Position numbers and translations under genes: made by a program. A stretch of 64,000 nt of DNA, taken from positions 62,001-126,000 of the forward strand of contig NZ_FXWZ01000003.1 of NCBI RefSeq assembly GCF_900184225.1. Reading direction: 5' to 3'. The first letter of the stretch is position 1. Every line of letters begins with the position of its first letter. Positions 34,429 through 35,539 of this stretch are shown here, piece by piece. Below the pieces are notes generated by a model, which saw only the letters and a program-made list of their open reading frames with translations, did not search any database and was not told where the DNA came from. Source of the DNA: Brevibacterium ihuae. GTDB lineage: Bacteria; Actinomycetota; Actinomycetes; Actinomycetales; Brevibacteriaceae.

Positions 34429-34844
34429 TCACAGCCGCAGCATCCGGGCGAGGACTCCGATGCCGGAGGCGACGAGCAGCGAGGCGAAAGAGCCGATGAT
34501 GAACCGCTCGCCGGCAGTCCGGCTCGACGTGAGCTCGGGGAAGCGTCCGAGGCCCTTGACGGCGATGACGGCGGCGAGGATCGCCGGATGCCCTGCCGCG
34601 ATCCCGCGCGCTCGAGGATCCCGATCCACAGTCCCCCGCTCAGCAGGCCGGAATCGTCGATCGACGCAGCGGTTCCGTTGTCGTGATCCGCTTCCCCACG
34701 TGCGGCTTCCGCTTCCCCGCGTGCGGGCTCCCCGCCTGTGGGCGCGTCGGCCCGTGCAGCCAGATTCAGGATCCCCGAGGTGACCGGCCAGCCGAGCACG
34801 GCCGCGGCGAGGGCTGCCGCGCAGATGACGAGGATCTCACCCAT
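34429..34844 (-). pseudogene. Frameshifted small membrane protein, partner of the SatD-like gene
   Basis: The N-terminal part (34844 to about 34590) encodes a transmembrane helix, a charged linker and the motif SGGLWIGILER. The continuation, with GHPAILAAVIAVKGLGRFPELTS-type sequence and a second hydrophobic segment ending at 34429, lies in another frame. The switch falls near 34600-34620, in a GCGCGCGGGA stretch; one missing base would repair it. Actinobacterial homologues join these parts as WIG-x-LER ... KGL-x-RFPEL. The ATG overlaps the satD stop by 8 bp (ATGGGTGA). Real mutation and sequencing error are both possible. Confidence 0.7.
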
Positions 34845-35460
34845 GATCGGACTCCCCGGGTTCGTGAACGGCGGCGAGCAGTCGGGTGCAGAGCGCCACG
34901 GCGTCGGCGATGAGGTCGGCGGCGCCGACCCGCAGGGTCTTCGAGACGAACTGCTGGCTCACATCGAGGCGATCAGCGAGGGCGCGCTGGGTGAGCGCGG
35001 GGTCGGCGAGCGCGGCTGAGATCACCGTCCATTGGACCTCGGTGCACGCGCCGATGAGTCGGACGAGCAGCCGGAGTGCCGTCTGCGCGTCCGCAGCGGT
35101 GATCGGCGCGTCCGACGGTGCGGGCTCTCCCCGGAGAGCGAGCGGGGTCAGCGCTTCCTTCGCCTCCTCGACGGCCTGTCGAGCGCGGACGAAGGCATCG
35201 CCCCGTGCATCACGGCTGTGCGCGGGCAGTGGGCTCTCCACCCCTCCCAGCCCGATGCCGATCGACCACCGGTCCGGGTGCGCGGCGCGGAGCACCGCGT
35301 CGACGACGACTTCCGGCGAGGTGAGGACCCCCTGGATCTCGTCACCGACGGTGCGGGCGAACGGGATCGCCGCCTCGAGGTCGTCGAGCGCGGCGAGCAG
35401 GCCGGGGACGGCGTCAGGCGTGCTGCGCGATCGGCGCTGGTCGATCGTGAGGACGAACAT
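34837..35460 (-). CDS. SatD-like protein with C-terminal helix-turn-helix
   Basis: A 207-residue cytoplasmic protein of the SatD type. Start FVLTIDQRRSR; then ARTVGDEIQGV (Gly39-Asp40-Glu41), SIGIGLGGV near residue 70 and ARGDAFVRARQAVEEAK near 85-101. The C-terminal part has a helix-turn-helix, TQRALADRLDVSQQFVSKTL (residues 157-176). The N-terminal motifs are spaced like those of class III nucleotide cyclases (see findings). It forms an overlapping pair with a small membrane protein and is inserted between truB and ribF. ATG 35460 was chosen because family similarity starts at residue 2. Function unknown. Confidence 0.75.
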   Translation of the reverse strand: MFVLTIDQRRSRSTPDAVPGLLAALDDLEAAIPFARTVGDEIQGVLTSPEVVVDAVLRAAHPDRWSIGIGLGGVESPLPAHSRDARGDAFVRARQAVEEAKEALTPLALRGEPAPSDAPITAADAQTALRLLVRLIGACTEVQWTVISAALADPALTQRALADRLDVSQQFVSKTLRVGAADLIADAVALCTRLLAAVHEPGESDHG

Positions 35461-35491
35461 GCACCCAGTCAAGCAGACGGCGCGGACACCC

Positions 35492-35539
35492 ACAACCACA
35501 ATCAGTTGTAACCGAGATAAACGCCCGAAATAGGTTGTA
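35492..35539 (-). promoter_or_regulatory. Repeated GTTGTA/ACAAC motifs upstream of satD
   Basis: Plus-strand GTTGTA occurs at 35505-35510 and 35534-35539, and the inverted ACAAC at 35492-35496, within an AT-rich patch 30-80 bp before the satD start. The helix-turn-helix of the encoded protein makes autoregulation at these sites a reasonable guess. Confidence 0.35.

Follow-up and report, generated by a model that had tools for sequence, protein, structure and literature searches.

A SatD-like protein of Brevibacterium ihuae with a predicted class III cyclase-like domain, a helix-turn-helix and a candidate operator array at its own start

What lies at this locus? The window, by which we mean the whole stretch of 64,000 nucleotides analysed here from contig NZ_FXWZ01000003.1 of Brevibacterium ihuae, carries on its minus strand a satD-like gene, a membrane-protein gene that follows it, and a set of inverted repeats immediately ahead of its start codon. 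The frame is open over 207 residues, and the gene and motifs that the preliminary description had read at 34837-35460 are all there: FVLTIDQR (residues 2-9), RTVGDEIQGV (36-45), SIGIGLGGV (66-74) and GDAFVRARQA (87-96). The features are as follows, in positions of the window, with upstream distances counted from the ATG.

34837..35460, minus strand: satD-like gene, 207 aa, ATG at 35460, from the translation of the open frame
35119..35460, minus strand: predicted N-terminal class III cyclase-like (palm) domain, residues 1-114, from the AlphaFold2 model, VIA and hhalign
35440..35442, minus strand: codon of Asp7, the predicted first metal ligand
35341..35343, minus strand: codon of Asp40 in T-x-G-D-E-x-Q, the predicted second metal ligand
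34864..35040, minus strand: predicted C-terminal helical DNA-binding part, residues 141-199, with modelled helices 141-152, 158-165, 169-178 and 181-199
34927..34956, minus strand: predicted recognition helix, residues 169-178 (Q169, K174), from covariation with operator bases
35493..35508: central operator palindrome CAAC-N8-GTTG, -48 to -33, the only CAAS-N8-STTG match in the window
35534..35537: lone outer half-site, CAAC on the minus strand, -77 to -74 (modal family position -75)
35470..35473: lone inner half-site, CTTG on the minus strand, -13 to -10, read from the sequence
34429..34844, minus strand: membrane partner gene of DUF3307 C-terminal type, frameshifted (partner profile E 5.9e-23 on the 3' piece)

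The best full-length family for the protein is SatD (PF16264), though the match falls under the curated cut-off (21.5 bits and E 2.1e-4, against a cut-off of 29). Because 58 of 66 family members nevertheless match PF16264 at E up to 1 (best 5.4e-10), we call the window protein SatD-like and assign it, by sequence, to a divergent branch of SatD. It shares with that family the order of its motifs, its length, the elements D-x-x-x-S-R, T-x-G-D-E-x-Q, G-I-G-x-G and G-x-x-[FWY]-x-x-A-R, the helix-turn-helix, and a DUF3307-type membrane gene downstream; it differs in its lower score, in having D-Q where SatD has D-[IVL], and in its shorter partner. Relatives were found by protein search in 41 of 59 genomes. 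Two samples of loci were drawn: an 81-locus set, made up of the window and the best 80 of 304 matches to a scan pattern that contained GDE, and an unbiased set of 30 loci from the protein search, in which no GDE pattern was used. Alignments held 66 of the 81 proteins after near-duplicates were removed (A2), 56 of the 81 (A3) and 16 of the 30 loci (A1). A set of distant SatD proteins comprised 15 of 17 PF16264 loci, omitting L125, which is close to the window type, and L127, which is below the cut-off. Among the satD loci compared, no neighbour besides the membrane partner is common to all genera; in Cellulomonas relatives the gene is found close to efp-nusB, and in Brevibacterium it is flanked by truB and ribF (gene names read from sequence).

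To our knowledge, SatD is known only by its name, "secretion and acid tolerance," and DUF3307 is a family of unknown function. Among the papers listed by a literature search on SatD, PF16264 and DUF3307 there was no functional study, and none described a SatD fold, DNA site or partner. In the parts of the two sources available to us, acid resistance is assigned to SatD by name only (PMC10326533), and a DUF3307 protein is listed in a phage (PMC8504454).

Does the N-terminal part of the protein have the fold of a nucleotide cyclase, as had been guessed from its motifs? AlphaFold2, run with 66 sequences, models the full-length protein with a pLDDT of 94.7 and a pTM of 0.90, and builds a b-a-b-b-a-b-a-b domain at residues 1-110, followed by a helix-turn-helix. 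The modelled elements are strand 2-8, helix 18-25, strands 32-36 and 41-46, helix 49-59, strand 65-71, helix 88-102 and strand 107-110, with five helices after them. When VIA was used to compare the full-length model with Foldseek's best chains, class III adenylyl cyclases filled the first 19 of 50 rows, the best at Z 11.4 over 123 residues (3.3 A), and the next matches were GTP cyclohydrolase III (Z 9.9), a type III CRISPR effector (9.3), mCpol (9.1) and GGDEF (9.0). Modelled alone, the N-terminal domain has a pLDDT of 95.0, and all 50 of its listed VIA rows are cyclase, GGDEF, mCpol or GTP cyclohydrolase III, with Z running from 11.0 (108 residues, 3.6 A) down to 9.3; as rows within one Z unit count as ties, the fold alone does not choose between class III, GTP cyclohydrolase III and GGDEF. 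Foldseek itself gave no match at E 0.001 or better for the full-length model or for the domain alone. Its first hit for the SatD-like model, above that threshold, was 3onq, which we take to be a CdaR/PucR-type protein, and nothing useful in a viral structure library matched this model. The b-a-b-b-a-b palm topology of class III nucleotidyl cyclases is thus present in the predicted model of the SatD N-terminal domain, and on this point AlphaFold2 and VIA agree with the preliminary description.

Profile-profile comparison with hhalign gave a match to the class III family. The SatD profile (residues 1-112 of 66 family members plus the 15 distant SatD proteins) scored 41.7 against class III cyclases (Guanylate_cyc, PF00211; 25 cyclase domains from actinobacterial genomes), with a pairwise P of 1.6e-6. 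None of 150 column-shuffled SatD profiles did as well (best 19.3), the reversed profile scored 8.7, and 13 unrelated families scored at most 21.8 (a control panel of 14, less SatD itself). The SatD-class III link is as strong as that between class III and GGDEF, for which the profile score is 38.0. When the distant SatD members are left out, the match of the family profile to class III is weaker (P 9.5e-5, probability 31 percent), and in this alignment Arg36-Thr-x-Gly-Asp40 of SatD falls on the Lys-x-x-Gly-Asp of the cyclases. Two other parent families were considered, with cyclase, GGDEF and GGDEF_2 profiles built from 25, 23 and 25 of 30 loci each. GGDEF was rejected, at a profile score of 23.2 (P 0.0028) against 41.7 for class III; GGDEF_2 (CdaR/PucR) was without clear profile similarity, at 17.5 (P 0.019), and class III scores 19.1 against GGDEF_2. 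A genome-wide profile search found no GGDEF match in the organism's own genome, and the GG[DE]EF signature is absent from the SatD members read, which have T/S-x-G-D-E-x there instead.

Are the residues of the active site kept along with the fold? In the 81-locus set (the window and the best 80 of 304 matches), position 7 is Asp in 78 and Asn in 3, and Asp40 is present in 81 of 81, a figure that is partly circular because the scan pattern for that set contained GDE. The unbiased loci retain both Asp7 and Gly-Asp-Glu in 30 of 30, and both aspartates are found in all 15 distant Pfam-type SatD proteins, with an extra residue between G and D in L118. Other positions are as constant: Ser11, Glu41, Gln43, Gly87 and Arg94 are invariant (81/81) in the window and the best 80 of 304 matches, and Asp7, Ser11, Gly39, Asp40, Glu41, Gly70, Gly72 and Gly87 are shared by 15 of 15 distant SatD proteins. 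Conservation of Asp7, Ser11, Gly39-Asp40-Glu41 and Gln43 extends across Actinomycetota families, and a haloarchaeal SatD copy keeps the Asp, the Ser and the Gly-Asp-Glu. The earlier proposal of a class III cyclase-like core has survived both checks set for it, on the topology of the predicted fold and on the conservation of Asp7 and Asp40, and is supported by the predicted fold, the family profile match and the kept metal aspartates together.

The residues responsible for cyclisation in the class III enzymes are a different matter. The purine-recognising Lys of K-x-x-G-D, present in 24 of the 25 cyclases used (none was found in L138), is replaced by Arg36 in 81 of 81 SatD proteins. At the position of the class III catalytic Asn, residue 91, Asn occurs in 0 of 81, and at that of the catalytic Arg, residue 95, Arg occurs in 14 of 81 (both in the window and the best 80 of 304 matches); the G-x-x-V-N-x-A-x-R signature is found in 22 of the 25 cyclases. 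The motif parallel that had been drawn with class III cyclases thus stands for the two metal aspartates and the hairpin but fails for GDAFVRARQA, which lacks the catalytic signature. Because neither the catalytic Asn/Arg pair nor the base-recognising Lys is conserved, SatD is best described as cyclase-like but no evident cyclase. These residues make metal or nucleotide binding by the N-terminal domain plausible; cyclisation by the class III mechanism they do not support.

The combination is set apart from known systems in several ways. SatD shares with class III adenylyl and guanylyl cyclases (PF00211) the topology, both metal aspartates and the x-T-x-G-D beta-hairpin, but has Arg for the Lys of K-x-x-G-D, lacks V-N-x-A-x-R, and has its domain fused directly to a helix-turn-helix. 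CdaR/PucR-type regulators are large multidomain proteins with a GGDEF-like domain (GGDEF_2, PF17853) before a helix-turn-helix (HTH_30). Mycobacterial cyclases of the Rv0386/Rv1358 type also combine a class III and a DNA-binding domain in a single polypeptide, but one with a central ATPase domain and several times the length of SatD. In the full text of a survey of actinobacterial cyclases (PMC2447327), "helix-turn-helix" is counted once and GGDEF twice, and neither occurs in its main text as available to us.

The helix-turn-helix of the SatD-like protein lies at about residues 158-178. The C-terminus matches several helix-turn-helix models, all under their cut-offs, among them MarR_2 (22.3 bits, E 1.5e-4, cut-off 27). 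At E up to 1, MarR_2 is matched by 54 of 66 family members and HTH_30 by 9 of 66.

Is there a DNA site that such a protein could read? In 66 of the 81 loci (the window and the best 80 of 304 matches), palindromes of the form CAAS-N7/8-STTG stand just upstream of the satD start, an observation that is new here; the other 15 have no exact match. The 81 upstream regions hold 103 sites in total; 200 single-base shuffles gave 1.0 on average and never more than 5. Enrichment over flanking DNA is 252-fold for the N8 form and 1548-fold for the everted spacing STTG-N12-CAAS. The family array consists of as many as three palindromes spaced by about 28 bp, the last ending a few bases before the satD start, with modal positions of -75, -48/-47 and -20 for CAAS and -64, -36 and -8 for STTG. 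In 36 of 81 loci a hexamer TANNNT stops 6 or 7 bases short of the start, which would agree with a leaderless promoter lying under the last palindrome; the window has no such hexamer there. The array of the window is incomplete, with the central palindrome and two lone half-sites, and the palindrome is the sole exact ACAAC-N8-GTTGT in the 3.1 Mb genome. No sign of a wider regulon was found: a one-mismatch pattern occurs 25 times in the organism's own genome against 31 for a reversed control, and in 59 relatives a three-half-site pattern generally occurs no more often than the reversed form used as its control.

Other palindromic sequences occur in these and in more distant genomes. A second paired site in several Brevibacterium genomes was rejected as an operator, since it is a hairpin at the 3' end of tyrS (two copies read); this hairpin (TACAAG...CTTGT; L204 3168-3214 and L205 3022-3068) mimics the operator pattern. 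The palindrome TACAACC-N3-GGTTGT, conserved in many Brevibacterium genomes (e.g., G029:C16:198460, in L207), is probably the site of another regulator. Palindromes with different letters precede distant SatD genes too (seen by eye, no statistics), and a haloarchaeal satD start (L240 2745-2844) is preceded by alternating inverted repeats with the half-site GTTCG/CGAAC, as if the array design had been kept while the letters changed.

Do the operator letters vary with the protein? Covariation was drawn from the 66 of 81 loci that have an operator, and C-terminal positions 120-206 were scanned; residue 169 ranked first for the outer operator base and residue 174 first for the inner base. At the outer base, Gln169 goes with A in 29 of 29 loci, Glu with T in 13 of 13 and Arg with G in 5 of 5, while Lys (5 T, 2 A), Pro (3 T, 2 A) and Ala are mixed. 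At the inner base, Lys174 goes with C (12/12) and Gln with G (31/31), and Arg with C in 14 of 18 (4 G). Relatedness inflates such residue-base counts. On a tree built with the recognition helix left out, of the 8 changes of the inner base 4 sit on branches on which residue 174 also changes (P 0.001), and of the 9 changes of the outer base 3 are accompanied by a change of residue 169 (P 0.037, weak support from the tree). Because residues 169 and 174 covary with operator bases, SatD very likely binds its own promoter. The preliminary description had imagined a cyclase-like sensor acting directly on DNA. Its fold and architecture hold, and direct DNA binding is now better supported than it was there, with independent evidence from an operator array that lies at satD's own start and covaries with the recognition helix; the role of sensor is one we infer.

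By partner profile, a DUF3307-like membrane gene lies directly after satD in 77 of 81 loci (the window and the best 80 of 304 matches) and is missing in four: L074, where the contig ends, and L086, L098 and L099. These last are Arthrobacter zg-type satD loci with Asn7 and no partner gene within 3 kb, and they are exactly the three loci in which Asp7 is Asn. That the loss of Asp7 and of the partner go together is suggestive only, because the three form one clade. In the window the partner is split over frames, with MGEILVICAA...GGLWIGILERA in one and the conserved half AVIAVKGLGRFPEL...ERFIIGS in another; the same stretch is conserved and uninterrupted in relatives. The frameshift could be decay or a sequence error, and with both an incomplete operator array and a frameshifted partner gene, the SatD-partner module may be decaying in this strain.

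What kind of protein is the partner? PF11750 (DUF3307) found no match in six partners of relatives, and the short actinobacterial partners differ from DUF3307 proteins in having no Pfam match above cut-off. Their conserved module is, however, homologous to the C-terminal half of the DUF3307 proteins that stand beside SatD (E 5e-17 to 4e-13), a region outside the part matched by the Pfam model. The DUF3307 proteins matched in this way come from two Actinomycetota genomes and a Haloplanus plasmid, on which the SatD and DUF3307 genes overlap by 4 bases. DUF3307 was found in 13 of 296 Actinomycetota genomes: 2 loci have SatD directly upstream, 6 have a class III cyclase gene in the cluster, 1 has a gene reading like a cyclic-nucleotide-binding protein, and 4 have neither. 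In the six genomes with a cyclase (1.4-1.8 Mb), PF00211 occurs once per genome and that copy lies beside DUF3307; as they belong to three genera, they count as three events. This repeated placement of the lone class III cyclase next to DUF3307 supports the idea that DUF3307 membrane proteins and cyclase-fold proteins work together. The clusters of DUF3307 with the genome's only class III cyclase are at L257 2054-4232 and in L253, L254, L255 (reverse complement), L246 and L250; L238, L246 and L250 also hold genes reading like cyclic-nucleotide-binding proteins.

How might these parts work together? We consider it probable, with appreciable room for doubt, that SatD is an autoregulator coupled to its membrane partner and equipped with a cyclase-like domain that binds nucleotide. 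The fold, homology, conservation, operator, recognition covariation and gene pairing were computed, and from them we infer the ligand (nucleotide binding), the direction of regulation (repression) and the role of the partner. SatD would be a one-component regulator. Homologous to the palm domain of class III nucleotidyl cyclases, its N-terminal domain keeps the metal aspartates, is without the cyclisation residues, and would most likely bind nucleotide and metal as a signal rather than make cAMP. The helix-turn-helix would bind, as a dimer, up to three CAAS-N7/8-STTG palindromes ending just before the satD start. Since these lie ahead of its own start codon, SatD would control its own transcription and that of the next gene, a small membrane protein of DUF3307 C-terminal type, probably as a repressor. 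The membrane protein would then probably be an input or an output working through the cyclase-like domain.

The metal aspartates, together with the invariant Glu41, Gln43 and Arg94, would also suit an active enzyme, a nucleotidyl transferase or cyclase producing a second messenger, with the helix-turn-helix only setting the protein's own level. GGDEF, mCpol and GTP cyclohydrolase III, nearly equal in fold score, act without the class III Asn/Arg pair. We regard such an enzyme as unlikely, however, because none of the 81 proteins has the class III catalytic Asn, all 81 have Arg in place of the Lys of K-x-x-G-D, the GGDEF signature is absent, and there is no obvious downstream receptor gene. Slightly less likely again is that the cyclase fold is a relic, serving only to dimerise the protein and to contact the membrane partner, with no nucleotide bound. 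The loss of catalytic residues agrees with a relic, as does the precedent of the CdaR/PucR-type regulators, to which the first Foldseek hit, 3onq, presumably belongs; yet the conservation of Asp7, Ser11, Gly39-Asp40-Glu41 and Gln43, with the haloarchaeal copy included, exceeds what a relic would need.

The contact between SatD and the operator is a prediction from sequence, and the array might instead belong to another regulator, of which SatD would simply be a target gene. This we think very improbable, since the half-site varies by genus in step with SatD residues 169 and 174, and the exact site is a singleton in the organism's own genome.

The autoregulatory reading, with SatD and its constant membrane companion acting together, suggests an uncharacterised membrane-to-gene signalling switch. 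A broader proposal, which we put forward tentatively and with somewhat more doubt than belief, is that SatD and its DUF3307-type partner form a membrane-to-DNA signalling module of bacteria and archaea. DUF3307 would then be a general membrane partner of cyclase-fold proteins, standing beside a true class III cyclase in some lineages, and in the SatD lineage the cyclase would have become a nucleotide-binding transcription factor with a two-residue DNA code. The operator and the two-residue code make DNA binding by SatD testable, and the DUF3307-cyclase link does the same for a membrane regulator of class III cyclases. If the autoregulatory reading is right, the widespread SatD-DUF3307 pair would gain a testable role, that of a cyclase relative reading nucleotides and writing directly to DNA.
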